42,344 bases of DNA from Rhizobiaceae bacterium (GTDB taxonomy: Bacteria > Pseudomonadota > Alphaproteobacteria > Rhizobiales > Rhizobiaceae), in NCBI GenBank assembly GCA_030065115.1, contig JASJDO010000012.1:1-42344 (forward strand), read 5' to 3'. This document shows positions 11,951-30,222 of the stretch, piece by piece; within the stretch, counting starts at the first letter, position 1; every line of letters starts with the position of its first letter. Under the pieces are notes generated by a model, which was not told the origin of the DNA, searched no databases, and saw nothing but the letters and a program-made list of their open reading frames with translations. A program made the translations under genes and the position numbers.

Positions 11951-13834
11951 CTAAAACACCCAGTTCATCATGGTCATCGACACCACCAAAAACAGAATGG
12001 TCATCACACCACCCGTTTTCATGAAGTCCGTCACCTTGTAACCGGCAGGCCCCATGATCAGGGCATTGACCTGGTGAGTTGGTATTAGGAATGAGTTGGA
12101 CGTGGAAATCGCAACCGTCATCGCAAAGATTGCCGGATCTCCACCCGCTGCAATTGCGATGGAAACCGCCAAGGGCACCAACAATACCGTCGCACCAACA
12201 TTGGACATTATCAGTGTGAATATCGTCGCCAGAATGGCAACTCCCACCTGAAGCGACCAGACCGGCCAACCATCCAATACAGAAAGAATTTGCTGGGCAA
12301 TCCACTCGGCAGTGCCAGTGCTTTGAACTGCCAATCCAAGCGGGATCAAACTTGCAAGCAGAAACACCGTACTCCAACTCACCGCACGATAGGCTTCATC
12401 AATGTCCAGAACTTTTGTCACCACCATTCCAATCGCACCCACCAGTAGACAAAGAGAGAGCAGAATATCCGTGAACAAAATCATGCCCAGCGCAACAGCG
12501 AAGAAGAACATGGCCCACCAGACTTTTGAAGGACGCAGCTCATCGCGAGGGAAATCCGAGGTCACAACGACAAAATCCCGGTCGCGGGAAATGCGCGTCA
12601 ATGCCTCCCAGGTACAATGAATGGCAAGCGTATCGCCCTGATGAAACGGCACTTCACCAACCGGCGTTGAAACATGATCCTCTGTCTCGACATAACTCAG
12701 CGTTTCGCCATAACGATGGATACCAAGGAGGCTCGCGCCATAGCGTTTGCGGAACACCACGTCATGCGCACATTTGCCGATAAGAGAGGAGTCGGGCGGG
12801 ATAACCACTTCGGCAACACCCGATTTGGTTGGCGCATAATCTTCAGCAAACACTTCAAGTGATGTGCGAACACCGAAGCCTTCAACCTTCGCCATTTCCA
12901 GCACGTCTTCCTTGCGCCCCAAGACTGCCAAGCGGCAGGGCGGTGTAATTGGTGTCTGGATCACCGGCGCAAACCATCGCTGCCCCTTGTAGAAAGAGCC
13001 AATGATGTAGACATGATCACGCTGCATGATGTCGTCAAAGGTTTGCCCTTCACAAGGGTGGCCTTCCGGAACAATCACTTCAAAAACATCAGCCTCTATT
13101 TCATACATGCGCTTGAGATAACTCTTCAGCGTTTGCGAACGTGCACCCTTCCCGTCTTCCTTGACCTTGGGCAGCACCCATTTTCCGAAAAGAACAAAGT
13201 AAAGGATGCCAGTGAGAACAAGGGCAATTCCAACCGGTGTGACATCAAACAATTCAAATGTTTTCATTTGCGCCTCAGGGGGCAGGTCCCGGTTGGCTGC
13301 AATAATTAGATCATTCAGCAGGATCAGCGGAGACGAACCCACCATCGTCATGGTACCGCCCATGATCGCGCAAAAGCCCATTGGCATCAGAAGACGCGAC
13401 AGAGGCAACTCGGTCCGCAGGGATATTCGCGAAACAACCGGCAGAAAGAGTGCGGCTGCACCCACATTCTGCATAAATGACGATATGATCCCAACTGTGC
13501 CGGAGATAATGGCAACCAGTTGCCTTTCCGTGTTTCCAGCATATCGCAAAATAATCGCCGCTACACGGCTCATAACACCGGTCTTGTCCAATCCGGCACC
13601 GATAATCATGACAGCAATGATTGAAATAACAGCGTTAGATGCAAAACCATCAAACAGGTTGTTGACGTCAGCCAGGCCCTCAAGACCAGGCACAAATGTC
13701 AGCAAACCCAGGACAAGCATGACCAAAATCGCTGCCAGATCAACCCGCAGGATTTCAGAAACAAACAGAAAAACAGTGAACCCCAACAGTCCCAAAACCA
13801 CGGACATTTCTGTGGTCAACGCCAAAGCGTCCAT
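11951..13834 (-). CDS. SLC13-family permease with two RCK-C (TrkA-C) domains, likely anion (sulfate) transporter
   Basis: 627 residues. Two blocks of membrane helices (about 1-215 and 425-627) flank a soluble centre with two TrkA-C-like domains (about 240-310 and 330-400). This is the usual make-up of the bacterial SLC13/DASS-like permeases annotated as sulfate or dicarboxylate carriers. NAVISIIAVMIIGAGLDKTG and SNVGATVLLVPLAVSIA are typical repeat motifs. AAAGGAGAG precedes the ATG. It follows cysH by 132 bases on the same strand, which makes sulfate the best guess for the substrate, by context only. Transport is expected to be Na+-coupled, as known in the family. Confidence 0.85.
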   Translation of the reverse strand: MDALALTTEMSVVLGLLGFTVFLFVSEILRVDLAAILVMLVLGLLTFVPGLEGLADVNNLFDGFASNAVISIIAVMIIGAGLDKTGVMSRVAAIILRYAGNTERQLVAIISGTVGIISSFMQNVGAAALFLPVVSRISLRTELPLSRLLMPMGFCAIMGGTMTMVGSSPLILLNDLIIAANRDLPPEAQMKTFELFDVTPVGIALVLTGILYFVLFGKWVLPKVKEDGKGARSQTLKSYLKRMYEIEADVFEVIVPEGHPCEGQTFDDIMQRDHVYIIGSFYKGQRWFAPVIQTPITPPCRLAVLGRKEDVLEMAKVEGFGVRTSLEVFAEDYAPTKSGVAEVVIPPDSSLIGKCAHDVVFRKRYGASLLGIHRYGETLSYVETEDHVSTPVGEVPFHQGDTLAIHCTWEALTRISRDRDFVVVTSDFPRDELRPSKVWWAMFFFAVALGMILFTDILLSLCLLVGAIGMVVTKVLDIDEAYRAVSWSTVFLLASLIPLGLAVQSTGTAEWIAQQILSVLDGWPVWSLQVGVAILATIFTLIMSNVGATVLLVPLAVSIAIAAGGDPAIFAMTVAISTSNSFLIPTHQVNALIMGPAGYKVTDFMKTGGVMTILFLVVSMTMMNWVF

Positions 13835-13966: not shown

Positions 13967-14599
13967 CTACAAACGATTGTGCAACCCGCATTCCAAATGA
14001 GCATCTACTTTCGTAGGATCATTGACTTCCGGCCCCACGGGCAATTCATGGAGCATCATATAGGTTTCCATGTCGTGATCATTCCAGTCGATCAGGGGAC
14101 ATACTTTCAGGTTTGATTGCTCATTGATTTGAAATAATGAAAGCGTGCTTCGGAACTGTGTTTGTTCACGTCTCAGCGCTGTAATCCAGACATCAGGATT
14201 GAGATTTGAAAGTGCGCGTTTGAATGGCTCAAGCTTAACCTTCCGCGCAAAGTGCCCGAGTTTCCCGGTTTCAGATGTTGGGACATTACCGCTGCAATGG
14301 CTGGTCGGCCGGTAAATATGTAGGTTAAGTTCCAATTCGTTTCTCAACCGATCCACATACGCATGGGTCTCCGCTGAATTGAAGCCTGTATCGACCCAAA
14401 CCACATCAATATCCGGTTTCAAACGCGTTGCCAGATGCAACAACACTGCAGATTGTGGGCCAAATTTTGTACTCACGATCGGTTTTTGCGAACGACGCAA
14501 GGCCAAGCCTAGAACATCAAAGGCAGCATTTGTTCTTGCCATCATGTTAAGCAGCGCGGGCGATTCTATGGTCGAATTCTGGGCAGTCGTCGCGTCCAT
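13967..14599 (-). CDS. cysH: Phosphoadenylyl-sulfate reductase, unusually short form
   Basis: 210 residues from the ATG at 14599, placed one base after the stop of the DUF2061 gene with AAGGA as ribosome site; a start at 14692 inside that gene is unlikely. It reduces PAPS to sulfite using thioredoxin. Seen: nucleotide-binding STKFGPQSAVLLHL (43-56), VWVDTGF (67-73), ALRREQTQFR (141-150), and the catalytic ECGLH tail (Cys204). Fe-S cysteine pairs of APS reductases are absent (only Cys102, 167, 204), so it is PAPS-type. The region between LPVGPEV and ECGLH is about 25-30 residues shorter than in E. coli CysH, lacking the SVGDTHTTR segment. It may be a divergent but active enzyme. Confidence 0.85.
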   Translation of the reverse strand: MDATTAQNSTIESPALLNMMARTNAAFDVLGLALRRSQKPIVSTKFGPQSAVLLHLATRLKPDIDVVWVDTGFNSAETHAYVDRLRNELELNLHIYRPTSHCSGNVPTSETGKLGHFARKVKLEPFKRALSNLNPDVWITALRREQTQFRSTLSLFQINEQSNLKVCPLIDWNDHDMETYMMLHELPVGPEVNDPTKVDAHLECGLHNRL

Positions 14600-14600
14600 C

Positions 14601-15167
14601 TTATCCAATCCTTGTTCCGGTTTTAACAAACAGCCAAAACCGCTCATGCAGAAAATACAGCACCAGTTTGGTGAAAACTTCTGCGCTGCCAATAGAAATC
14701 GCGGTGCTGATATCGCCAGTGAAAATCCAAGCCAATAGCATCGTGTCTAACGATGCAAGAACACGCCAGACAGCCATTTTTGAAACGGATCGAATGCGGC
14801 TTTCGTGACGACGCCCATTTACAACAGAGACACCCCACCCCGCCCGGTTCCAGGCTCTTTCATGTGCAGTAAACAGAAATATTTTCGTGAGTATCTCAGT
14901 CACCGCGATCAGGCTTGCCATTTTGGCTATGTCCAGATTTGCGAGGCCTTCCCCGGCTCCGAAATACGGCCCAAGATATTTTATAATCACATAGGACAAA
15001 AAGAAGGTATCCAGCGTTCCAATGACACGCCAGCTGATCGCCTTGAATAACGAACGGGTCGCCGTCTCATTCGCTTGAGAATGCGCCGAGGATGATTTTG
15101 ATCTTGTCATCGTTTCATCCATGAACCCGTAACTCTCAGAAACAGCCATATTCATCGGTCTCGTCAT
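14601..15167 (-). CDS. Membrane protein with two DUF2061 domains
   Basis: 188 residues containing two copies of the DUF2061 pattern: SLFKAISWRVIGTLDTFF ... TKIFLFTAHERAW (about 39-110) and SVSKMAVWRVLASLDTML ... TKLVLYFLHERFW (about 127-182). Each copy has two membrane helices. The function of DUF2061 is unknown. The stop codon is separated from the cysH start by one base, so translation is likely coupled, and a role in sulfate/sulfite handling at the membrane is a fair inference. The first 38 residues are a soluble Ser/Thr-rich tail, and two internal Met codons (residues 6 and 20) are alternative starts. Confidence 0.85.
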   Translation of the reverse strand: MTRPMNMAVSESYGFMDETMTRSKSSSAHSQANETATRSLFKAISWRVIGTLDTFFLSYVIIKYLGPYFGAGEGLANLDIAKMASLIAVTEILTKIFLFTAHERAWNRAGWGVSVVNGRRHESRIRSVSKMAVWRVLASLDTMLLAWIFTGDISTAISIGSAEVFTKLVLYFLHERFWLFVKTGTRIG

Positions 15168-15434: not shown

Positions 15435-16028
15435 ATGAGCGTTGTTGCGACAGACAATCTGTATTCGGTTGCAGAGAATGTTCACTCTGTGGGCAATGAT
15501 ATTCGCGCGCTTCGCAAATCCCGGTCCATGACGTTGGTGGAGTTTGCTGAAACAATCGATCGTTCTGTTGGGTTTGTAAGCCAGATCGAACGCGGTATTT
15601 CCGAACCTTCCATCTCAGACCTGCGCAACATCGCCAAACTGTTCGATGTGCCGCTCAGCTTTTTCTTCGGCGATAATCCCGGTTCAGAAGAAGAATACCG
15701 CCATATTGTACGGGCAGATCATCGCCGCAAGCTTGGCAATCCTGAAGAAGGTTTGCTTGAAGAACTGCTTTCTCCAGACCTCGGTGGCACGTTTGAGATC
15801 ATTCATTCGGAATTCGCACCCGGAGCCCGGCTCGCAACACCTCAACAACGGGATACCGAGGAAGCCGGATACATTATTTCTGGCCAACTGGACCTCGAAC
15901 TGGACGGCGTCTGGCACACACTCAAAACCGGAGATTCTTTCCGTTTCTCCGGCGAAGCCTATCGTTGGCGCAACACAACCAACAAACCAACAATCGTGAT
16001 TTGGGTGGTCTCCCCACCCGTCTACTAG
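15435..16028 (+). CDS. XRE-family regulator with C-terminal cupin domain
   Basis: 197 residues from the ATG at 15435, chosen because AGGAAA lies six bases upstream; the frame is open back to 15366 but without a ribosome site. An XRE helix-turn-helix (about residues 14-70, IRALRKSRSMTLVEFAE and SQIERGISEPSISDLRNIAKL) is followed by a small cupin effector domain (about 110-190, EAGYIISGQLDLELDGVWHTLKTGDSF). This architecture is that of amine, amino acid and sulfur-compound catabolic regulators such as PuuR and SutR. It is the first gene of the demethylation-type operon, 19 bases before the next gene, and is its probable local regulator. The cupin would bind the pathway substrate or an intermediate (inference). 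Confidence 0.9.
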   Translation: MSVVATDNLYSVAENVHSVGNDIRALRKSRSMTLVEFAETIDRSVGFVSQIERGISEPSISDLRNIAKLFDVPLSFFFGDNPGSEEEYRHIVRADHRRKLGNPEEGLLEELLSPDLGGTFEIIHSEFAPGARLATPQQRDTEEAGYIISGQLDLELDGVWHTLKTGDSFRFSGEAYRWRNTTNKPTIVIWVVSPPVY

Positions 16029-16047
16029 TTAATACAAGGAAGAAGAA

Positions 16048-18495
16048 ATGGCTGAAATCCCATCCACGGCACGCGTTGTCATCATCGGCGGAGGCGTTGT
16101 CGGCGTTTCCGGATTGTATCATCTTGGAAAAGCTGGGTGGACAGATTGTGTGCTTTTGGAGAAGAACGAGCTGACTGCCGGTTCGACCTGGCACGCAGCC
16201 GGTAACTGCCCGAATTTCTCTGGCTCTTGGGCCATCATGAACATGCAGCGCTACGGTCTGGAATTGTATCGTGGCCTTGCTGACGAAGTCGATTATCCGA
16301 TGAACTATGCGGTCACAGGCTCAATTCGCCTGGCGCACTCAAAAGAGCGGATGCAGGAATTTGAACGCGTTGCAGGCATGGGCCGATATCAGGGCCTAGA
16401 GATCGACATTTGCACAAATGCGGATTTGAAGGAACTGAACCCGTTCATGGAAACCCATGACCTTGAAGGCGGCATGTGGGACCCGCTGGATGGCGATATT
16501 GATCCGGCTCAATTGACACAGGCGCTAGCAAAAGGCGCTCGTGAAATGGGACAGAAAATCATTCGCATGTGCCCTGCAACAGGCGTTTCCAAGGATGGTG
16601 ATGAGTGGATTGTTCATACGGACAAGGGCGACATCCGTTGTGAATATGTGGTGAATGCAGCAGGTTACTATGCCCAACGCGTTGGCGAGTGGTTCAAGCC
16701 ATTTGGCGGTCGTACTGTTCCTCAAGTCGTAATGAGCCACCAATATTTTCTCACCGAAGAAATTCCTGAACTCGAAGCTTGGACCAAGGAAAAAGGGCAT
16801 AAAATGCCCATGATCCGTGACGTGGATACCTCTTACTACCTGCGTCAAGACAAGAATGGTTTGAACCTCGGCCCATACGAACGCAATTGTAAGGCGCATT
16901 GGGTGACCCCTGATGACCCGATGCCGGATGATTTTTCGTTCCAGCTTTACCCGGATGATCTGGACCGTCTGGAATGGTACATTGAAGATGCCATGGCTCG
17001 TGTTCCAATCCTTGGAACGCAAGGTGTTGGCCGTGTCATCAATGGTCCAATCCCTTACGCACCGGATGGGTTGCCGTTGATCGGCCCTATGCCTGGTGTC
17101 AAAAACGCATTTGAAGCACATTCATTCACATTCGGCATCGCCCAGGGCGGTGGCGCTGGTAAAGTGCTGGCAGAATGGATCGTGCATGGTGAAACCGAGT
17201 GGGACATGTGGGCTGTCGATCCCCGTCGTTACACCGATTATGCCGATCATGACTATTGCCTTGCAAAGGCTCTTGAGACTTATGGTCATGAATACGCAAT
17301 GCATTTCCCGCATCATGAATGGCCTGCAGGGCGCAACAAGAAATTGTCTTCTGTTCATGAAAAGCTTCTCGCAAATGGCGCGCAAATGGGAGCCTATAAC
17401 GGATGGGAACGCGCCAACTGGTTTGCTAAAGATGGTGATGACACTTCAGAAGAAGCGACACAGACCTGGAACCGGAACGGACCATGGGAAGTTCGCGTTA
17501 AGGAAGAGTGTGAAGCAGTTCGCGATGCTTGTGGCATTCTCGATATGCCTGGCTTCTCACGCTTTACGCTGAAGGGCGACGGCGCAGCCGATTGGTTGAG
17601 AACTCAAATCACTGGCGGTCTGCCAAAAGTTGGACGGATGAACCTCGGTTATTTTGCTGATAATCGCGGCCGAATTGTCACTGAGATGTCGATCATGCGC
17701 CACGACGACGACCTCTTTACACTCATGACTGCAGCTGTAGCGCAATGGCACGACTGGGAATGGCTGCAAAACGCATTGCCGGAAGATGGTTCACTTACGC
17801 TGACGGACCATACTCTCGGGTTTGCTGTCCTATTGGTGACTGGCCCAACATCACGCGATGTGCTGTCAGGACTTACAGATGCCGATCTGTCCGCTTCGTG
17901 GCTTTCACACCAGAAGACCGAAATTAACGGCATCACCTGCTTGTTGGCACGTGTATCATTTGCAGGTGAACTTGGCTGGGAAGTGCATGCTGCCAGCAAC
18001 GATATTCCTGAGCTTTACGACGCGATTACCGGCGCTGGTGCGAAACCTTTCGGCATGTACGCGTTGAATTCACTTCGGATCGAGAAAGGATATCGTACCT
18101 GGAAAGGCGATCTTTCAACGGACTATTCGTTGCTCGAGGGCGGCATGGGACGCTTCATCAAGTGGGACAAGCCCGCCTTTACCGGCAAGGCCGCACTTGA
18201 AAACGAGAAACAACAAGGCAGCTCAAAGCAATTTGCTACCCTGATTGTGGATGCGGGCGATGCTGATGCACCTTACATGTCTACCATCTGGAAAGATGGT
18301 GAAGTGGTTGGCGAAACCACATCGGGCGCATGGGGCTACCGCGTTAACGCCTCTATAGCGCTCGCCATGGTGAAAGCTGATCTGGCTGCGCCAGGTACTG
18401 AACTCGAAGTGGAAATTTACGGCGAACGCCGCAAGGCAATTGTACAAGAAGACCAGCCATTGTGGGACCCGGCCAACGAAAGGATCCGTGCATAA
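16048..18495 (+). CDS. FAD-GcvT oxidoreductase, dimethylglycine dehydrogenase-like (enzyme 1)
   Basis: 815 residues, same length and domain order as mitochondrial dimethylglycine dehydrogenase. The FAD domain (1-390) has VVIIGGGVVG (10-19) and STWHAAG, with His49 at the position that carries covalent FAD in the family. The GcvT/tetrahydrofolate half (430-810) has the expected VSFAGELGWEVH and LRIEKGYRTWKGD. Known relatives oxidise N-methyl groups and pass the carbon to tetrahydrofolate, giving 5,10-methylene-THF, with electrons going to ETF. The stretch after WHAAG reads NCPNFSGSW, unlike the sarcosine/dimethylglycine type seen in enzyme 2, so the substrate probably differs. AAGGAAG precedes the start. 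First structural gene of the operon. Confidence 0.93.
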   Translation: MAEIPSTARVVIIGGGVVGVSGLYHLGKAGWTDCVLLEKNELTAGSTWHAAGNCPNFSGSWAIMNMQRYGLELYRGLADEVDYPMNYAVTGSIRLAHSKERMQEFERVAGMGRYQGLEIDICTNADLKELNPFMETHDLEGGMWDPLDGDIDPAQLTQALAKGAREMGQKIIRMCPATGVSKDGDEWIVHTDKGDIRCEYVVNAAGYYAQRVGEWFKPFGGRTVPQVVMSHQYFLTEEIPELEAWTKEKGHKMPMIRDVDTSYYLRQDKNGLNLGPYERNCKAHWVTPDDPMPDDFSFQLYPDDLDRLEWYIEDAMARVPILGTQGVGRVINGPIPYAPDGLPLIGPMPGVKNAFEAHSFTFGIAQGGGAGKVLAEWIVHGETEWDMWAVDPRRYTDYADHDYCLAKALETYGHEYAMHFPHHEWPAGRNKKLSSVHEKLLANGAQMGAYNGWERANWFAKDGDDTSEEATQTWNRNGPWEVRVKEECEAVRDACGILDMPGFSRFTLKGDGAADWLRTQITGGLPKVGRMNLGYFADNRGRIVTEMSIMRHDDDLFTLMTAAVAQWHDWEWLQNALPEDGSLTLTDHTLGFAVLLVTGPTSRDVLSGLTDADLSASWLSHQKTEINGITCLLARVSFAGELGWEVHAASNDIPELYDAITGAGAKPFGMYALNSLRIEKGYRTWKGDLSTDYSLLEGGMGRFIKWDKPAFTGKAALENEKQQGSSKQFATLIVDAGDADAPYMSTIWKDGEVVGETTSGAWGYRVNASIALAMVKADLAAPGTELEVEIYGERRKAIVQEDQPLWDPANERIRA

Positions 18496-18941
18496 TGCAA
18501 AGCTTTGCAAAACCTCATCGGGAACCGGATTTCAAAGACTGCTTTTCAGGTGCCAATGCATACCCTGAAAAGTCAGCAAAAGAGCTTGCTGAACTCGCTT
18601 TGGCAAGCTCACCATTCTGGTTCCGGGTGATGTTTGCAATGCGGCAAAAACTGGCGAACATTGTTGGCTTAAGAACCAAAACGGATCAGGGCGAAAATCC
18701 GGGAGTTTCCTTTCTGCTGTCTTTGCCAGAGCTGGAAAACACCGAAACTGCCTATGAAGCTGGTCTCGCGGACAAACACCTCGATTTTACGATTCGTCTG
18801 GAAAAGACCGCCGACAGGGTAAATTTAATGACGCAAATTTGGTTCAACAACTTTTGGGGCAAGATTTACCTCAAGTTTGTCCTGCCGTTTCATAATATGA
18901 TTGTTTCGCATTGGGTCAAGAAACTGGGGCGAATTCAATGA
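18495..18941 (+). CDS. DUF2867 domain protein
   Basis: 148 residues from the ATG at 18495, which shares one base with the TAA of the preceding gene (TAATG). It shows the DUF2867 pattern: SPFWFRVMFAMRQKLANIVGL, then a DKHLDFTIRLEK strand, a TQIWFNNFWGKIYLKFVLPFHN segment and a basic end. The family fold is of the START/polyketide-cyclase-like type by general knowledge, but its activity is not known. Coupled translation with enzyme 1 and the cupin suggests a role in the same pathway, perhaps binding a hydrophobic or aromatic intermediate. Confidence 0.85.
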   Translation: MQSFAKPHREPDFKDCFSGANAYPEKSAKELAELALASSPFWFRVMFAMRQKLANIVGLRTKTDQGENPGVSFLLSLPELENTETAYEAGLADKHLDFTIRLEKTADRVNLMTQIWFNNFWGKIYLKFVLPFHNMIVSHWVKKLGRIQ

Positions 18942-19408
18942 CCGGAGAAGTATTACATCTTGGTCCCGGCGAAGGCCCCAACTACAACTGGGAAAACGAC
19001 CATACCTTTGTAAAGGTCGGCTCCGAACATACAGGCGGCGCCTACACGCTTATGGAAGACAATCTCAAAGCGAGTTTCGCCTTGGGATTGCACAAGCATG
19101 AAACGCATGCGGAAACCTTCTATTTTCTCGAAGGGGTCATTGATTTCTATCTGGATGGAAAGTGGATCAAGGCTGAGCCCGGCACGACAATTCACGTCCC
19201 CCCCGGTGTGCCACATGCATGCAAAGTTGCGAACGACCAACCGGCAAAAATGCTCATGATCTATCAGCCTTCCGGTTTCGATGGATTTCTTGCCGAAATG
19301 AGCAAAATGAGCGATTCAGATTTTGCAGATGAGGCCAAAATGGCTGCATTGAACGCAAAATATGACATTGTTCCCATGGGGCCGGTGCCCGAGCACCCGG
19401 GCAACTGA
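18938..19408 (+). CDS. Single-domain cupin protein
   Basis: 156 residues; the ATG overlaps the preceding TGA by four bases. Both cupin motifs are complete: GLHKHETHAETFYFLEG (metal ligands His52, His54, Glu59) and PGTTIHVPPGVPHACKV (His93). It should bind one divalent metal. Such single cupins include dioxygenases, isomerases and lyases. The motif alone does not decide, and I see no feature that singles out the DMSP lyases. Its place between DUF2867 and the flavin-barrel gene indicates a pathway enzyme. Confidence 0.9.
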   Translation: MTGEVLHLGPGEGPNYNWENDHTFVKVGSEHTGGAYTLMEDNLKASFALGLHKHETHAETFYFLEGVIDFYLDGKWIKAEPGTTIHVPPGVPHACKVANDQPAKMLMIYQPSGFDGFLAEMSKMSDSDFADEAKMAALNAKYDIVPMGPVPEHPGN

Positions 19409-19418
19409 GACCAGTTCC

Positions 19419-19877
19419 ATGTCACTGAATGATTTCGCAAAGCAATTGATCAAAAACTTCCCACTGGGCTTTGTTGCTACGGTGAGCGAGGAAGGATTGC
19501 CGTCATTATCGCCTAAGGGAACATTCTTTGTTCTCGATGATGAGACGATTGCTTTCGCAGAAATTCGGTCGCCTAACACCATGAAGAACATTGCGCATCA
19601 ACCAAAGGTTGAGGTCAATTTCATCGATATTTGGTTGCGCAAGGGTGTTCGCGTTTTCGGTGGCACAGAGATTTGTGAACGCGGAACAGATGATTTCAAT
19701 GACATCATCAACATTTGGGAGGCACCCTTCCCTGCATTGGCGCCCCGCATCAATGCGATCGTCAAGGTCAAAGCTGAGCGGGTCAGGCTGATGACCACCC
19801 CGCCCTATGATGATGGCGTAACAGAAGAAGAGATGATCGCCACCTATAAGAAAAAGTGGGGAGAGATTTATTCATGA
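19419..19877 (+). CDS. Pyridoxamine 5'-phosphate oxidase-family flavin split-barrel protein
   Basis: 152 residues from the ATG at 19419, ten bases after the cupin stop. The N-terminal half follows the FMN split barrel: PLGFVATVSEEGLPSLSPKGTFFVLDDETIAFAEIRSPNT, then a NIAHQPKVEVNFID strand pair. Relatives use FMN or F420, or bind haem. It is not PdxH itself, since it is shorter and lacks the PNPOx C-terminal region. A reductase or flavin-binding role in the operon is likely. Its stop overlaps the next start by four bases. Confidence 0.85.
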   Translation: MSLNDFAKQLIKNFPLGFVATVSEEGLPSLSPKGTFFVLDDETIAFAEIRSPNTMKNIAHQPKVEVNFIDIWLRKGVRVFGGTEICERGTDDFNDIINIWEAPFPALAPRINAIVKVKAERVRLMTTPPYDDGVTEEEMIATYKKKWGEIYS

Positions 19878-20752
19878 GCGACATCACAATTCTGGATGGT
19901 GGTATGGGGCAGGAACTCATTCATCGCTATGGCCAACCACCAACGCCCTTATGGTCAACTCATGTGATGATGCAAGAGCCTGATCTGGTTGGCGATATCC
20001 ATGACGACTATTTCGCGGCGGGTGCGCATGTCGCGACCACAAACACATATGCCATTCACCACGATCGACTGTTGCGCCAGGACCCGGAGCTGGACAAGCA
20101 GTTTTCTGAGTTGCACGTGAAAGCTTGCGAAATCGCATGTAAATCACGTGACAAAAACGGCAGCGGCATGGTTGCAGGTTCGCTTGGGCCACTCGGTTTT
20201 TCTTATCGTCCCGATCTCAGCTTCCCTCCCGAAGAAGCGAGAAAGATGTTTGCTGAAATTGCTCGGCTACATGAGCCCTATGTCGACGTTCACCTGATTG
20301 AAACGGTCAGCAAGATTGAACATGCTCATGGATGCCTTCTCGGCACAGCAGGCTCGTCCAAACCAACATGGCTTGGCGTAACTGTGTCTGATGAGGATGG
20401 CACGATACTGAGATCAGGTGAACCACTGTCCGATGTCAAAGCGCTCTTTGGCGAATATGATGTCTCAAAATTGCTGATCAACTGCGCAACGCCAGAAGCC
20501 GTTGATCAGGCAATGGACATAATCGCTGACATCGAAATTCCGTTTGGTTCCTATGCTAACGGCTTCACCTTTATCACCTCTGACTTCACCAAAAAGGAAA
20601 CGGTGGATCAGCTTGAAGCACGTACAGATCTGAGCCCGGAAAAGTATGCAGACTTCTGCTCAAAGTGGGTTGATCAGGGCGCAAGCATCGTCGGTGGATG
20701 TTGCGAAGTCGGACCTGCCCATATTGCAGAATTGAGCAGGAGGTTCGGATAA
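19874..20752 (+). CDS. Homocysteine S-methyltransferase-family protein
   Basis: 292 residues; ATG overlaps the preceding TGA (ATGA). It is a TIM barrel with the family's zinc-thiolate ligands: Cys204 in LLINCATP and Cys276-Cys277 in VGGCCEVGP. The N-terminal ILDGGMGQEL is also conserved. Known members (MmuM, BHMT) move a methyl group from S-methylmethionine, glycine betaine or a related donor to homocysteine, giving methionine. Here the donor is not known. With two demethylating FAD-GcvT enzymes in the same operon, a betaine-like donor is the natural inference: first methyl to homocysteine, remaining methyls to tetrahydrofolate. Confidence 0.92.
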   Translation: MSDITILDGGMGQELIHRYGQPPTPLWSTHVMMQEPDLVGDIHDDYFAAGAHVATTNTYAIHHDRLLRQDPELDKQFSELHVKACEIACKSRDKNGSGMVAGSLGPLGFSYRPDLSFPPEEARKMFAEIARLHEPYVDVHLIETVSKIEHAHGCLLGTAGSSKPTWLGVTVSDEDGTILRSGEPLSDVKALFGEYDVSKLLINCATPEAVDQAMDIIADIEIPFGSYANGFTFITSDFTKKETVDQLEARTDLSPEKYADFCSKWVDQGASIVGGCCEVGPAHIAELSRRFG

Positions 20753-21924
20753 TGCCTTTACCTTCCAATAGGATAACGCAAATATCTGAATCAGATTTGG
20801 AAGGCTGGGAAGTCTATATTGAGGCCTTGCGTCTGCAACGCGAAGGCAAAGACGTGATCATGACCAGCATTGGGGAACATGATTTCGACCCGCCTCAGGA
20901 AACAATTGACGCCTGCAAACATGCCCTCGATTCAGGTCACCACAATTACACCGATATACCCGGCAAACCAGACCTGCGCGAAGCAATGGCCCGGGTTTCT
21001 CAAAAAGCGCTGAAGCTCGACATCAAACCCTCCGAAGTAATCGCGATGCCCGGCGGTCAGTCATGCCTATATGCTGCCATGCAGGCAACGCTTGATCCTG
21101 GTGACCACATCATCGTTATTGGTCCACATTACGTTACATATCCCGGCACTATTCGCGCGGCAGGGGCGACCTTCACCGTTGTCGACGCCTACTCTGAAGA
21201 TGGGTTTCAGCCCAAGGCAGAAGCAATTGAAGCTGCCATACAGGACAATACCAGAGCGATACTGCTGAACACACCAAACAATCCGACCTGTGCAATTTAT
21301 AGCCGTGAGACACTGGAAGCGATCGCAGAAGTTTGCGTGCGCCATGACCTTTGGATCATTAGTGACGAAGTCTATTGGTCTCTGAGCAATGGGAAACACA
21401 TTTCACCGATGGCGATTGATGGCATGCGTGATCGTACATTGGCACTGCTATCCATGTCCAAAAGCCACGGATTGACTGGCTGGCGGGTAGGCTGGATCGT
21501 ATCCACAGAAGCAATGTCCTACAATTTCAGCCAGCACAATCTGGTAAGCAATTACGGCATGTGTGATTTCATTTCAAAAGCAGCGCAACAGGCATTGGAT
21601 GGTGATTTCGGCTTAAACGAAATCGCAGAAACCTATCGCAATCGCGGCACGGTCTTTCTTGAAGCATTGGGAGACACAAACGATATTCGCGTACTGAACG
21701 AACCGGGCAGCATGTATTTCATGCTAGACATTCGCGCCAAGACAAATAACACGCAAGGATTTGCCTTCAAACTCCTTCAAGACGAACTGGTTGCCGTAAT
21801 GCCAGGCGAAAGTTTTGGGCCAAGTGCTGCCGGTCATATTCGCATCAGCCTCGGTGAATCCGAGGAAAGACTTAAAGAAGCGGCTTCACGGTTGCGCCGC
21901 TTTGCTTCCAACTACACAGAATAG
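20752..21924 (+). CDS. Class I/II pyridoxal-phosphate aminotransferase
   Basis: 390 residues; the ATG shares one base with the preceding TAA. Fold-type I features are all visible: NTPNNPT near 173, ISDEVYW with the pyridine-binding Asp205, the Schiff-base lysine in SMSKSHGLTGWRVG (Lys237), and the carboxylate-binding arginine in GHIRISLG near the C-terminus. The substrate cannot be told. Within the operon it probably deaminates the demethylated amino acid, or recycles an amino donor. It is of the aspartate/aromatic-like branch by general appearance. Confidence 0.93.
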   Translation: MPLPSNRITQISESDLEGWEVYIEALRLQREGKDVIMTSIGEHDFDPPQETIDACKHALDSGHHNYTDIPGKPDLREAMARVSQKALKLDIKPSEVIAMPGGQSCLYAAMQATLDPGDHIIVIGPHYVTYPGTIRAAGATFTVVDAYSEDGFQPKAEAIEAAIQDNTRAILLNTPNNPTCAIYSRETLEAIAEVCVRHDLWIISDEVYWSLSNGKHISPMAIDGMRDRTLALLSMSKSHGLTGWRVGWIVSTEAMSYNFSQHNLVSNYGMCDFISKAAQQALDGDFGLNEIAETYRNRGTVFLEALGDTNDIRVLNEPGSMYFMLDIRAKTNNTQGFAFKLLQDELVAVMPGESFGPSAAGHIRISLGESEERLKEAASRLRRFASNYTE

Positions 21925-21939
21925 AGAAAGACACACAAA

Positions 21940-24393
21940 ATGAGCAAACCTGTTCCTTCCAAAGCTTCTGCTGTCATCATTGGCGGTGGCGTTGCCGGAT
22001 GTTCGGTCGCCTATCACCTGGCCAAACTGGGCTGGAAAGATGTCGTCCTTCTCGAGCGTAAGCAGTTAACCTGTGGCACGACCTGGCATGCTGCTGGCCT
22101 GATTGCCCAGTTACGAGCGACCAAGAACATGACCAAGCTCGCAAAATACTCGCAAGAGCTCTACGGCACACTGGAAGAAGAAACCGGGGTTGCGACCGGC
22201 TTCAAGCGCGTTGGTTCAATCACGGTTGCACTAACCGACGAAAGAAAAGAAGAAATCTATCGACAGGCCTCAATGGCGCGCGCTTTTGGCGTTGAAGTTG
22301 AGGAAATCTCTCCAACCGAAGTCAAAGAGCGCTATGAACACCTCAATATCGAGGATGTAACAGGCGCGGTTTACCTGCCACTGGATGGTCAGGGGGACCC
22401 GGGAAACATTGCCCATGCGATGGCAAAAGGTGCGAAGCAAAACGGCGCTTCAGTCATTGAGGGTGTTAAAGTCACAGAAATCCATCAAAAGGACGGTCGG
22501 GTCACCGGTGTGAGCTGGAGCCGCGATGGCTCTGATGAACAAGGCACAATTGATGCAGACTATGTTGTAAACTGCGGTGGCATGTGGGCCCATGAGGTTG
22601 GCCGCATGGCGGGCGTGAATGTGCCGCTTCATGCATGTGAGCACTTCTACATCGTCACAGAAGGCATCGAAGGCCTCAAGCAATTGCCGGTCCTTCGGGT
22701 GCCTGATGAATGTGCATACTACAAGGAAGATGCCGGCAAAATGCTTCTCGGGGCGTTTGAACCAAACGCCAAACCTTGGGGCATGGAAGGCATTAAGGAA
22801 GATTTCTGCTTTGACCAGCTGCCGGAAGATTTTGACCACTTTGAGCCAATCCTTGAACAAGCTGTAAACCGACTTCCAATGCTGGGCGAAGCGGGCATTC
22901 ATACGTTCTTCAACGGCCCCGAGAGTTTCACACCAGATGATGCTTATCACCTTGGCGAAGCGCCAAACCTGAAGAATTTTTATGTTTGCGCCGGCTTTAA
23001 CTCTGTCGGCATCCAGTCTTCCGGCGGTGCTGGCATGGCCCTTGCCCAATGGATGCATGATGGCGAGCGTCCATTTGACCTTGGAGATGTGGACATCGCG
23101 CGGATGCAACCTTTCCAGGGCAACAAGCACTATCTCTTTGAAAGATCAAAGGAAACGCTTGGCCTACTTTACGCGGACCACTTCCCGTTCCGTCAAAAGG
23201 CCACCGCGCGAGGCGTGCGCAGAACACCCTTCCACAACCACCTGCTGGAGCGTGGCGCCGTTATGGGAGAGCTCGCGGGCTGGGAACGCGCAAACTGGTT
23301 TGCACGCGAAGCGCAGGAAGCCGAGTATCAGTACAGCTGGAGCCGTCAGAACTTCTTTGACAATGTTCGTGAGGAACATATGGCGGTTCGCCAGAATGTC
23401 GGCATGTATGACATGTCATCCTTTGGCAAAATTCGTGTCGAAGGTCCTGACGCTGAAAAATTTATGAACTATGTTGGAGGTGGCGATTATTCCGTTCCCA
23501 ACGGTAAAATTGTCTATACGCAATTCCTGAACAATCGCGGCGGCATTGAAGCAGACGTAACGGTGACCCGCCTCACCGAAACCGCCTATCTCGTTGTGAC
23601 ACCTGCTGCAACGCGGCTTGCGGACCAAACCTGGCTAGAACGCAATAAAGGCGATTTCAACGTCGTCATCACCGACGTCACCGCAGGTGAAGGCGTTTTG
23701 GCAGTTATGGGTCCGCGTTCTAGAGACCTGTTGCAGGCGGTTTCGCCGGGTGATTTTTCAAATGACGTCAATCCGTTCGGTACAGCACAGGAAATTGAAA
23801 TCGGCATGGCGCTTGCCCGCGTCCATCGCGTCACCTATGTGGGTGAACTTGGCTGGGAAGTCTATGTCAGTGCCGACATGTGCGGCCATGTATTCGAAAC
23901 TCTGGCGGAGGCCGGGTTTGACTACGGCATGCGTCTATGCGGCATGCACATGATGGATACCTGCCGTATCGAAAAAGGTTTCAGACATTTCGGACATGAT
24001 ATCACCTGTGAGGATCACGTGATGGAAGCCGGATTGGGGTTTGCCGTTAAAAAGGATAAGCCGGAATTTATTGGCCGGGATGCTGTTTTGAGAAAGCAGG
24101 ATGAAGGATTGGAAACACGTCTGGTACAGTTCCGTCTGACAGATCCTGAGCCCCTGCTCTATCACAATGAGGCAATTATCCGGGATGGCGAGGTAGTCGG
24201 ATATTTGACTTCAGGCGCATATGGACATGCTCTGGAAGGCGCCATGGGCCTTGGATACGTCCCGTCTAAAGGCGAAAAAGCATCAGAAATGCTTGCATCC
24301 AGCTTCGAAATTGAGGTCGCGGGTACTCGCGTGAAAGCAGAAGCAAGCCTCAAGCCAATGTATGATCCAAAGTCAGAACGCGTGAAGGTTTAG
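21940..24393 (+). CDS. FAD-GcvT oxidoreductase, sarcosine/dimethylglycine dehydrogenase-like (enzyme 2)
   Basis: 817 residues. The FAD domain has AVIIGGGVAGCS (11-22) and GTTWHAAGL with the covalent-flavin His50. The substrate-side stretch LIAQLRATKNMTKLAKYSQELY is the typical sarcosine/dimethylglycine dehydrogenase form. The GcvT half runs from about 425, with VTYVGELGWEVYV and CRIEKGFRHFGHDI. It is expected to remove an N-methyl group and load it on tetrahydrofolate. It begins 15 bases after the aminotransferase with a GAGAAAG ribosome site. It is only distantly similar to enzyme 1, so the pair is an old divergence, not a recent duplication. Confidence 0.93.
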   Translation: MSKPVPSKASAVIIGGGVAGCSVAYHLAKLGWKDVVLLERKQLTCGTTWHAAGLIAQLRATKNMTKLAKYSQELYGTLEEETGVATGFKRVGSITVALTDERKEEIYRQASMARAFGVEVEEISPTEVKERYEHLNIEDVTGAVYLPLDGQGDPGNIAHAMAKGAKQNGASVIEGVKVTEIHQKDGRVTGVSWSRDGSDEQGTIDADYVVNCGGMWAHEVGRMAGVNVPLHACEHFYIVTEGIEGLKQLPVLRVPDECAYYKEDAGKMLLGAFEPNAKPWGMEGIKEDFCFDQLPEDFDHFEPILEQAVNRLPMLGEAGIHTFFNGPESFTPDDAYHLGEAPNLKNFYVCAGFNSVGIQSSGGAGMALAQWMHDGERPFDLGDVDIARMQPFQGNKHYLFERSKETLGLLYADHFPFRQKATARGVRRTPFHNHLLERGAVMGELAGWERANWFAREAQEAEYQYSWSRQNFFDNVREEHMAVRQNVGMYDMSSFGKIRVEGPDAEKFMNYVGGGDYSVPNGKIVYTQFLNNRGGIEADVTVTRLTETAYLVVTPAATRLADQTWLERNKGDFNVVITDVTAGEGVLAVMGPRSRDLLQAVSPGDFSNDVNPFGTAQEIEIGMALARVHRVTYVGELGWEVYVSADMCGHVFETLAEAGFDYGMRLCGMHMMDTCRIEKGFRHFGHDITCEDHVMEAGLGFAVKKDKPEFIGRDAVLRKQDEGLETRLVQFRLTDPEPLLYHNEAIIRDGEVVGYLTSGAYGHALEGAMGLGYVPSKGEKASEMLASSFEIEVAGTRVKAEASLKPMYDPKSERVKV

Positions 24394-28267: not shown

Positions 28268-29038
28268 TTACTTCGGCGCCATCCGTATCGCACCATCAAG
28301 GCGGATTACTTCGCCGTTCAACATCGCATTCTCGCAAATTGAGATGGCTAGCTTGCCATATTCTCCCGGCTGACCAAGGCGAGATGGAAATGGCACCATA
28401 GCTCCAAGCGCATCCTGAACTTCCTGCGGCATGCCAGATACCATCGGCGTACCGAAAATACCGGGAGCAATGGTCATCACCCGAACCCCGTTACGCGAAA
28501 GATCTCGCGCCATTGGCAAGGTCATCCCAACCACGCCACCTTTTGAAGCGCTGTAAGCAATCTGACCGATTTGACCGTCGTAGGCGGCAACCGATGCTGT
28601 GTTAATGATTACTCCCCGCTCGCCATCATCATTGAGAGGGTCTTGTGCGCACATGCCTGCCGCACTTTGCGAAGAAACATTGAACGTCCCGATCAGGTTC
28701 ACACCAATCGTTTTCGCATAGGTCGCTGCGTCGTGCGAATTCCCGTCGCGATCCACAGTCTTCGCAGCCGGGGCAATCCCCGCACAATTGACGCATATGC
28801 TTTCCTGACCATTTGTGGCACGAACGATATCAAGCCCTCCAGCAACCGAGTCGGGATCCGATACATCAACCTTGGCGAAAGTGCCGCCGATCTCAGCCGC
28901 AACGCGATTGCCACTTTCTTCATTGACGTCAAAAATACCGACTTTAACGCCCTTCGCAGCAAGTGCGCGCGCAGTCGCTTCACCCAGCCCAGAGCCACCT
29001 CCGGTGACGACTGCAGCTAACGTGTCGTTCAATTTCAT
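28268..29038 (-). CDS. HSD10-type short-chain dehydrogenase (3-hydroxyacyl-CoA dehydrogenase-like)
   Basis: 256 residues. The Rossmann motif TGGGSGLG (12-19), NCAG (84-87), and the catalytic set Ser149, Tyr162, Lys166 (YSASK) are intact. The sequence follows mitochondrial HSD17B10 (2-methyl-3-hydroxybutyryl-CoA/3-hydroxyacyl-CoA dehydrogenase), including the PMARDLSRNGVRVMTIAPG stretch. It is separated from the thiolase gene by two bases on the same strand, which makes a hydroxyacyl-CoA to ketoacyl-CoA to thiolysis sequence the natural reading. It uses NAD+. Isoleucine or short fatty acid breakdown is a likely setting. Confidence 0.92.
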   Translation of the reverse strand: MKLNDTLAAVVTGGGSGLGEATARALAAKGVKVGIFDVNEESGNRVAAEIGGTFAKVDVSDPDSVAGGLDIVRATNGQESICVNCAGIAPAAKTVDRDGNSHDAATYAKTIGVNLIGTFNVSSQSAAGMCAQDPLNDDGERGVIINTASVAAYDGQIGQIAYSASKGGVVGMTLPMARDLSRNGVRVMTIAPGIFGTPMVSGMPQEVQDALGAMVPFPSRLGQPGEYGKLAISICENAMLNGEVIRLDGAIRMAPK

Positions 29039-29040
29039 CT

Positions 29041-30222
29041 TTATACCCTCTCAATTGCAATCGCGGTTCCTTCACCACCACCAATACAGATAGCAGCTAG
29101 TCCGCGTTTTTTGTCGTGTGTTTCCAACGCGTTAAGCAGTGTCACGATAATTCGTGAGCCTGATGCACCAATCGGATGACCAAGCGCACAGGCCCCGCCA
29201 TGCACGTTGACCTGATCGCGGTCGAGCCCAAACTCATGCATAAAAGCCATCGGAACCACAGCGAAGGCCTCATTCACCTCCCATAAATCCACATCATCCT
29301 TGGTCCAACCAATTTTTTCCATCAGTTTCTTGGCAGCAGGTACAGGCGCAGTCGTAAACCAACCCGGTTCATGCGCATGGCTCGCATGGCCATGGATAAC
29401 AGCCCGAACTTCCATTCCTTCTCGTTCAGCAACACTTTCGGTGGTAAGGACCAACGCGGCCGCACCATCCGAAATGGAAGAAGCGTTAGCAGCCGTGACG
29501 GTGCCATCTTTTTTAAACGCTGGTTTCAGATTCGGAATTTTCTCGGGCATGGCCTTGCGCGGTTGCTCATCGCTTTCGATTGAAATATCCCCTTTGCGCG
29601 TCGAATAGGAAACAGCGCTGATTTCATTGGCAAATTTACCGTCAGCTTCTGCCTTTTGCGCATTCTCCAGAGAGCGGATGGCATAGGCATCCTGTGCCTC
29701 ACGGGTGAATTGGAACTTTTCCGCGCAGTCTTCAGCAAAAGACCCCATCAGCTTGCCCTTGTCATAAGCATCTTCCAACCCGTCGAGGAACATGTGGTCG
29801 ATCACCTGACCATGACCAAGGCGAGCCCCACCACGCATCTTTTCGAGTAAATACGGCGCATTGGTCATGCTCTCCATGCCACCGGCAACAATTATTTCAC
29901 CGTTTTCCGCCTTGAGTTGATCGAAAGCGACCATGGTCGCCTTCATGCCTGAGCCACACATCTTGTTGAGTGTCGTGGCAGGCACGCCTTTATCCAGCCC
30001 CGCGTGAAATGCTGCCTGACGCGCTGGAGCCTGACCTTGTCCGGCTGGCAATACATTGCCCATAACCACTTCATCCACTTTTGCAGGATCAAGCTTTGCA
30101 TCTTCAAGTGCCGCCTTGATCGCAGCGCCGCCAAGCTCCGACGCTGTTAGAGACGAAAACTCTCCCTGAAAACCACCCATGGGTGTGCGTTTCGCGCCTG
30201 CAATTACAATTCTGTCAGCCAT
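29041..30222 (-). CDS. Acetyl-CoA acyltransferase (thiolase)
   Basis: 393 residues, the standard length. Catalytic residues are complete: Cys89 in NKMCGSG, His349 in GHPIGASGSR, and Cys379 in CIGGGEG. It cleaves 3-ketoacyl-CoA to acetyl-CoA and a shorter acyl-CoA, or runs in reverse. It lies 22 bases downstream of the glycerate kinase gene and two bases upstream of the HSD10-type gene, so the three form one leftward operon. Chain-length preference cannot be read from the sequence. Confidence 0.95.
   Translation of the reverse strand: MADRIVIAGAKRTPMGGFQGEFSSLTASELGGAAIKAALEDAKLDPAKVDEVVMGNVLPAGQGQAPARQAAFHAGLDKGVPATTLNKMCGSGMKATMVAFDQLKAENGEIIVAGGMESMTNAPYLLEKMRGGARLGHGQVIDHMFLDGLEDAYDKGKLMGSFAEDCAEKFQFTREAQDAYAIRSLENAQKAEADGKFANEISAVSYSTRKGDISIESDEQPRKAMPEKIPNLKPAFKKDGTVTAANASSISDGAAALVLTTESVAEREGMEVRAVIHGHASHAHEPGWFTTAPVPAAKKLMEKIGWTKDDVDLWEVNEAFAVVPMAFMHEFGLDRDQVNVHGGACALGHPIGASGSRIIVTLLNALETHDKKRGLAAICIGGGEGTAIAIERV

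Follow-up and report, generated by a model that had tools for sequence, protein, structure and literature searches.

Taurine genes beside a two-enzyme demethylation cassette of Alphaproteobacteria: N-methylated taurine as a possible substrate

What is demethylated by an operon that joins two FAD-dependent N-methyl dehydrogenases, each fused to GcvT-type folate domains, to a homocysteine S-methyltransferase (HMT)? The operon, whose two dehydrogenases we call FADa and FADb, lies in a stretch of 42,344 nucleotides from a marine Rhizobiaceae bacterium (the window; positions 1 to 42,344 of contig JASJDO010000012.1, assembly GCA_030065115.1). An earlier note, made from the sequence alone, had presented seven genes here as an undescribed demethylation-type operon and had taken its extra genes to imply a substrate that is different from, or larger than, glycine betaine. 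We find that the operon is real and that its core is a widely found demethylation cassette, annotated in part; what is new here is the recurrent taurine-gene context of this core, and this nearness to taurine genes is a useful new lead. The best explanation, to which we give slightly less than an even chance, is a stepwise demethylation of N-methylated taurine, with the methyls passing to homocysteine and tetrahydrofolate.

The conserved core and its predicted chemistry

Loci of relatives were collected by a scan with an FADa alignment (80 loci), from relatives found in searches, from annotated plasmids, and from 60 regions of a second order, inferred to be Rhodobacterales, and 18 regions of the window's own order, inferred to be Hyphomicrobiales. 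HMT alone was a poor guide to relatives, its best plasmid relatives (61, 54 and 53% identity) standing outside such operons. The loci were mapped by tblastn; an earlier choice of the longest open reading frame (ORF) had missed many genes in GC-rich loci. After the removal of repeats (L123, L035, L125, L131, L137 and L138) and of loci without FADa (L030, L176, L178 and L181), and with L213-L217, which were fetched later, set apart, there were 158 non-repeated FADa loci from other genomes, the window itself being left out. Some of these loci end at contig ends, so the gene counts given for them are lower bounds.

FADa of the relatives was 56 to 87% identical to that of the window. FADb was found in 146 of the 158 loci, the regulator that heads the operon in 135 and HMT in 97. 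The pairing of FADa with FADb is more than chance, since it recurs in so many loci from at least two orders. Other genes of the loci were MttB (24), the split-barrel gene (19), taurine genes (14), the cupin gene (5), the aminotransferase gene (5) and the DUF2867 gene (4). The seven-gene unit fails as a conserved entity because the split-barrel, cupin, aminotransferase and DUF2867 genes are patchy in this set. The earlier note had proposed to follow the gene order across relatives and had held that its reading would fall if the cupin, DUF2867 and split-barrel genes were not conserved with the rest; they are not kept with the core, and the argument from extra genes to the substrate falls with them.

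A frequent order in Rhodobacterales is thiolase-GAF-regulator-LysE-GFA-FADa-methyltransferase-FADb-RluA. The core of the operon appears to match SPO3396-SPO3402 of Ruegeria pomeroyi, a probable orthology judged by annotated names and numbering, which fit the Roseobacter core form LysE, FADa, HMT and FADb. The window adds to this form the cupin, DUF2867, split-barrel and aminotransferase genes, and its operon showed neither a LysE nor a GFA gene. Section 9 of PMC4744692 makes SPO3400 the dimethylglycine dehydrogenase and SPO3396 the sarcosine dehydrogenase of a hypothesised pathway, and the mutants of that section concern fhs and not these two genes; in PMC4809877 the annotations are homocysteine S-methyltransferase for SPO3398 and LysE for SPO3402. 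Only these two papers turned up in the literature on locus tags SPO3396-SPO3401. With two of its genes already assigned by hypothesis, the core was too boldly called undescribed, and it is the taurine context that is new.

Both FADa and FADb have the full DAO-FAO_M-GCV_T-GCV_T_C order, with all four domains above the Pfam cut-offs. The solved structures nearest to FADa are mammalian dimethylglycine dehydrogenases (DMGDH; 543-556 bits), and FADb reaches 456 bits against DMGDH and 411 bits against the dimethylglycine oxidase (DMGO) of Arthrobacter. The two-part architecture, a WHAAG histidine, a His-Tyr pair and the folate domain are shared with mitochondrial DMGDH (PDB 4P9S, 4PAB, 5L46) and with DMGO (1PJ5); unlike these, the window has two paralogous enzymes and a regulator in one operon, and relatives have them in a taurine context. 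The WHAAG histidine aligns at H49 in FADa and H50 in FADb, and by counting along the chain we take it to be His91 of human DMGDH. Its role as the FAD-binding residue of that enzyme is named in PMC5082570, and H49 and H50 are predicted to bind FAD covalently. The catalytic pair (H225/Y259 of DMGO) is present as H231/Y263 in FADa and H235/Y260 in FADb, and these positions are among those at least 99% invariant in 159 FADa and 140 FADb sequences. To judge from these domains and residues, the likely chemistry of both enzymes is oxidative N-demethylation with transfer of the carbon to tetrahydrofolate. The description of a demethylation-type operon with two tetrahydrofolate-linked FAD enzymes and a homocysteine methyltransferase is thereby supported. 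The nearest structure does not fix the substrate of FADa, because human DMGDH is matched almost as well by two other FAD-GcvT paralogues of the source genome, which have other neighbours (519 and 505 bits, compared with 543 for FADa).

The HMT of the window scores below the cut-offs of both the canonical BHMT model (NF005718; 66.8 bits, cut-off 338) and the MmuM model (NF007020, PRK09485; 129 bits, cut-off 215). Its residues C204, C276, C277, W27 and Y59 are shared by at least 97% of the 98 in-cluster members that were aligned, a set that includes the window's HMT and some repeats. The three cysteines are predicted to be the zinc-binding cysteines of Zn-dependent homocysteine methyltransferases, a role that we assume by analogy, and W27 and Y59 are presumably at the sites that bind the methyl donor in BHMT. 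HMT occurred in 5 of the 24 MttB-bearing loci and in 92 of the 134 others, a tendency to exclude each other whose test overstates independence since the loci are related. A Rieske protein was found in four loci, two of named Rhizobiaceae and two of the source genome's own family. This pattern of co-occurrence fits HMT, MttB-family and Rieske proteins being three interchangeable ways to remove the first methyl of a quaternary amine.

Taurine genes around the core

Taurine genes (tauABC and/or xsc) lay within 13 kb of FADa in 14 of the 158 loci, from several lineages. In the FADa tree, a quick tree with SH-aLRT support only and two long rows flagged, taurine-linked rows are scattered: the 13 rows whose sole label is taurine need 9 changes, at least 7 of which are forced by well-supported branches. 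The clade that holds the window's FADa (support 93) has 5 taurine-linked rows out of 12. FADa was present in 27 of 297 genomes of the window's order, and 8 of the 18 loci fetched from this order were taurine-linked, two of them of one genus.

The arrangements differ between lineages. A regulator-FADa-FADb set stands between tauR-tauABC and pta-xsc in genome G022 (locus L029) and in Ahrensia kielensis (L065), with a split-barrel gene inserted in L029. The order in Paracoccus seriniphilus (L117) is regulator-tauABC-cupin-FADa-FADb-ETF-folD-purU, with xsc adjoining, and L197 has tauABC ahead of FADa, both on one strand; L103, L122 and L175 are further taurine-linked cases from Rhodobacterales. 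L192 has tauC-tauB-tauA-tauR, a regulator, FADa (79% identical to the window's), HMT, a split-barrel gene (FMNb), FADb, MttB and pta. Among the first 131 loci, four of which were repeats, all six taurine-linked loci lacked HMT; L192 is the exception in the wider set, and we do not claim that HMT and taurine linkage exclude each other. Genes of the known taurine dissimilation clusters (tauR-tauABC-xsc-pta) thus adjoin the core in relatives; in contrast, they are not adjacent to it in the window. The source genome, a 3.18-Mb draft that is 94% complete and has 15 GCV_T matches (13 over the family cut-off, some of them fragments), does have xsc, at the edge of C161, another contig than that of the operon, and in genomes G004 and G007 of the same genus tauA is near xsc.

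In three genomes of this genus a ureohydrolase gene adjoins tauA (L209 6462-7427, L210 12658-13626 and L212 6611-7585), and that of L209 passes the agmatinase model TIGR01230 (195 bits, cut-off 174). It is perhaps there for guanidinotaurine.

Co-occurrence was also assessed in 292 genomes of the second order, in which FADa was present in 200, xsc in 197, BHMT in 279 and dmdA in 158. FADa and xsc were found together in 181 genomes, neither was found in 76, and each alone in 19 (FADa) and 16 (xsc), giving a phi of 0.72, compared with a looser 0.52 for the control pair dmdA and xsc. The link persisted both in dmdA-positive genomes (138 with both, 8 with FADa alone, 4 with xsc alone and 8 with neither) and in dmdA-negative ones (43, 11, 12 and 68). 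These genomes are related, and p-values would overstate their independence.

Taken with the predicted enzyme chemistry, this context can be arranged into a route. HMT would move one methyl of trimethyltaurine (taurobetaine) to homocysteine, yielding methionine and dimethyltaurine, a step for which an MttB-family or Rieske protein may stand in among relatives. FADa would then oxidise dimethyltaurine to the monomethyl form, with the carbon going to tetrahydrofolate, and FADb would do likewise on N-methyltaurine to leave the free amine. The taurine nitrogen would be removed to give sulfoacetaldehyde, by a class III aminotransferase in some relatives and possibly by the class I aminotransferase in the window, after which Xsc and Pta would convert sulfoacetaldehyde to acetyl-CoA and sulfite. 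A degradation of N-methyltaurine that releases methylamine was reportedly described by Weinitschke et al. in 2006; it would have its end in sulfoacetaldehyde and Xsc in common with the route proposed here, whereas the methyl would here leave bound to tetrahydrofolate. Among the open-access papers listed for methylated taurine, we recognised none on a bacterial demethylation route. A homarine route was considered at first and dropped, since the papers listed for it gave no support.

With a confidence that stops a little short of even, we read the operon of the window as a lineage-specific form of a widespread alphaproteobacterial cassette (regulator-FADa-methyltransferase-FADb) that would demethylate N-methylated taurine. 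A bolder proposal, possible but rather doubtful, is that Alphaproteobacteria of the sea and of plants share a widespread, undescribed route that strips the methyls from tri-, di- and monomethyltaurine, with interchangeable first enzymes of the homocysteine, MttB-family and Rieske types, in which case SPO3400 and SPO3396 would be methyltaurine demethylases. Such a route, if true, would feed methionine, one-carbon units and sulfonate metabolism together. With FADa in 200 of 292 genomes of what are probably Rhodobacterales, the true substrate of the pair bears on the diet of a major marine bacterial group. If that substrate is methylated taurine, an osmolyte class gains a defined bacterial sink that ties methyl, nitrogen and sulfur turnover, and the common annotation is wrong.

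Weighing the substrate

Several observations weigh against methylated taurine. The operon of the window has no taurine gene for a neighbour, and the 94% complete source genome, in which xsc is at a contig edge, yielded no tauA. None of the five aminotransferase-bearing loci is taurine-linked (one of them, L034, is only 8.5 kb long), and we know of no class I aminotransferase that acts on taurine. HMT is absent from 13 of the 14 taurine-linked loci, so the form of the window is unlike most of them, and in the FADb tree its nearest rows are aminotransferase-bearing and then HMT-bearing loci, none of them taurine-linked. Both of the TauA proteins scored are members of the taurine family, but at 157 and 171 bits they are below the taurine-model cut-off of 304, and their exact cargo may differ from taurine. 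In the second order, among the places listed, FADa and xsc were no more than 30 kb apart in 12 of 99 genomes (the two share a contig in 49), with 2 of the 12 within 10 kb and the other ten, which are all of genus g343, at 24-27 kb; this nearness alone is weak and is not our main argument. Just beyond tauC in L192 there is a ProXWV/ChoXWV-type betaine/choline ABC transporter, the only case in 162 loci, which fits taurobetaine and glycine betaine equally. The loci of Neorhizobium (L213) and Rhizobium CC-CFT758 (L214) have a GbcA-like Rieske gene (about 257 bits, cut-off 670) after FADa-FADb and, at a greater distance, carnitine 3-dehydrogenase and acyl-CoA genes. This points to glycine betaine, which can arise from the breakdown of carnitine. 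Limimaricola has a stand-alone HMT (L023 14010-14867), 61% identical to the window's, with a BKACE gene about 8 kb away and a carnitine 3-dehydrogenase gene at about 10 kb. Finally, PMC10132767 lists 'DMGDH', a candidate orthologue, as raised together with Bet proteins in Phaeobacter MED193, in a column that we read as phosphatidylcholine.

The main rival explanation is that the cassette serves the glycine betaine route, with HMT making dimethylglycine, FADa acting as dimethylglycine dehydrogenase and FADb as sarcosine dehydrogenase, and with the nearness to taurine genes reflecting islands of osmolyte catabolism. We regard this as quite possible, though somewhat improbable. The carnitine and Rieske neighbours of L213 and L214 and the transporter of L192 speak for it, as do DMGDH as the nearest solved structure, with the His-Tyr pair and FAD-binding histidine kept, and GlxA-type regulators between FADa and FADb in 20 of the same 131 loci, one of which resembles GbdR (149 bits, cut-off 480). 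The R. pomeroyi genes are so assigned in the hypothesised pathway of PMC4744692, and the SPO3398 and SPO3402 annotations in PMC4809877 match the Roseobacter gene order found here. This explanation has to contend with a separate gene of the BHMT model (523 bits) in the source genome, which is on contig C125 (L182) and not on that of the operon; canonical BHMT near the dehydrogenases, as in a glycine betaine demethylation cluster, was thus not found there. It stands together with an MttB-like gene and a gene for a corrinoid protein whose best match is the glycine betaine-specific MtgC (194 bits, cut-off 370), and the three genes are a candidate for a separate betaine route. BHMT is also present in nearly all of the second-order genomes, as given above, and among the places listed none of 76 genomes had it within 100 kb of FADa (the two share a contig in 16) and none of 77 within 30 kb of xsc (a shared contig in 19). 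The closeness of the two FAD-GcvT paralogues to human DMGDH takes force from the structural argument, and the taurine context is left unexplained. A substrate other than glycine betaine is plausible because the core adjoins taurine genes in 14 of 158 loci and none of those 76 genomes had BHMT less than 100 kb away from it. To this extent the earlier note was right about a different substrate; nothing that we found implies a larger one.

The aminotransferase-bearing group may have shifted to a methylated alpha-amino acid such as alanine betaine, which would be demethylated and then transaminated to a 2-oxo acid. The aminotransferase is of the aspartate type of class I and is confined to loci of the window's order, none of them taurine-linked, and the source genome holds several further FAD-GcvT genes whose neighbours differ; nevertheless, FADa and FADb of the window each keep to the 95% family consensus at all positions but one, with no hint of a changed substrate, and we consider this shift unlikely. 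It is very unlikely, in our judgement, that FADa and FADb are of broad range and demethylate several small dimethyl and monomethyl amines, so that the taurine and the carnitine/betaine contexts would both be genuine and the first gene (HMT, MttB or Rieske) would set the substrate. The mutual avoidance of HMT and MttB and the four Rieske loci agree with such a cassette, although the relatedness of the loci inflates that avoidance. No alignment column separated taurine-linked from other members at an 80/80 criterion, either in FADa (14 of 159) or in FADb (13 of 140), which also speaks for a broad range; to us, columns this uniform suggest one substrate class with changing neighbours. Demethylation of N-methylated taurine stays the reading that we prefer, at the strength given above.

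Layout of the operon and neighbouring genes

The ORF positions and Pfam matches bear out what had been noted of the seven genes, which lie on the same strand with the families, overlaps (1, 4, 4 and 1 bases) and gaps (10 and 15 bases) first described. An eighth gene had been overlooked, an XRE-cupin regulator that ends 19 bases upstream of FADa; with it the unit covers 15435-24393, its genes overlapping by 1-4 bases or standing 10-19 bases apart (Table 1). The cupin, split-barrel and DUF2867 genes are accessory.

Table 1. Genes of the operon, all on the + strand, with positions in the window and occurrence in the 158 loci of relatives
Gene product	Position	Strand	Evidence	Loci
XRE (HTH_3) + Cupin_2 transcriptional regulator, first gene of the unit	15435..16028	+	Pfam, scanned from 15438	adjoins core in 135/158
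FADa, FAD-dependent N-methyl dehydrogenase fused to GcvT-type folate domains	16048..18495	+	Pfam DAO, FAO_M, GCV_T, GCV_T_C	
DUF2867 protein, accessory, rare in relatives	18495..18941	+	Pfam PF11066, E 7e-18	4/158
Single-domain cupin, accessory	18938..19408	+	Pfam Cupin_2; PDB quercetinase-type cupin, E 6e-16	5/158
Small PNPOx/HupZ-like split-barrel protein, accessory	19419..19877	+	Pfam PNPOx_N; HupZ, E 2e-7	19/158
Homocysteine S-methyltransferase (HMT)	19874..20752	+	Pfam S-methyl_trans	97/158
Class I/II aminotransferase, accessory	20752..21924	+	Pfam Aminotran_1_2; nearest solved structure AspAT 1bkg, 221 bits	5/158
FADb, second FAD-GcvT demethylase (predicted)	21940..24393	+	Pfam DAO, FAO_M, GCV_T, GCV_T_C	146/158

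Upstream of the operon, and identified by eye, are an SLC13-type permease gene (11951-13834, - strand) and a PAPS-reductase-like gene with a small membrane protein gene (13967-15167, - strand). A protein 66% identical to the permease is encoded near pta-xsc in the same-genus genome G009 (L211 3885-5765), a possible sulfur link. The reductase-like pair is divergent to the regulator, likewise in G004 (L027), where the identity of the reductase is only 47%. Downstream are SDR-like and thiolase-like genes (28268-30222, - strand); a thiolase of the same cluster as the latter was found in 45 of 91 loci, the window included, and in Roseobacters it is upstream of the core. Elsewhere in the source genome, contig C51 (L183) carries another FAD-GcvT enzyme gene, after which come three enolase-superfamily-like genes and one for a class III aminotransferase, with a Rieske-like gene nearby, all as seen by eye, a cluster that looks like one for (hydroxy)proline betaine catabolism.

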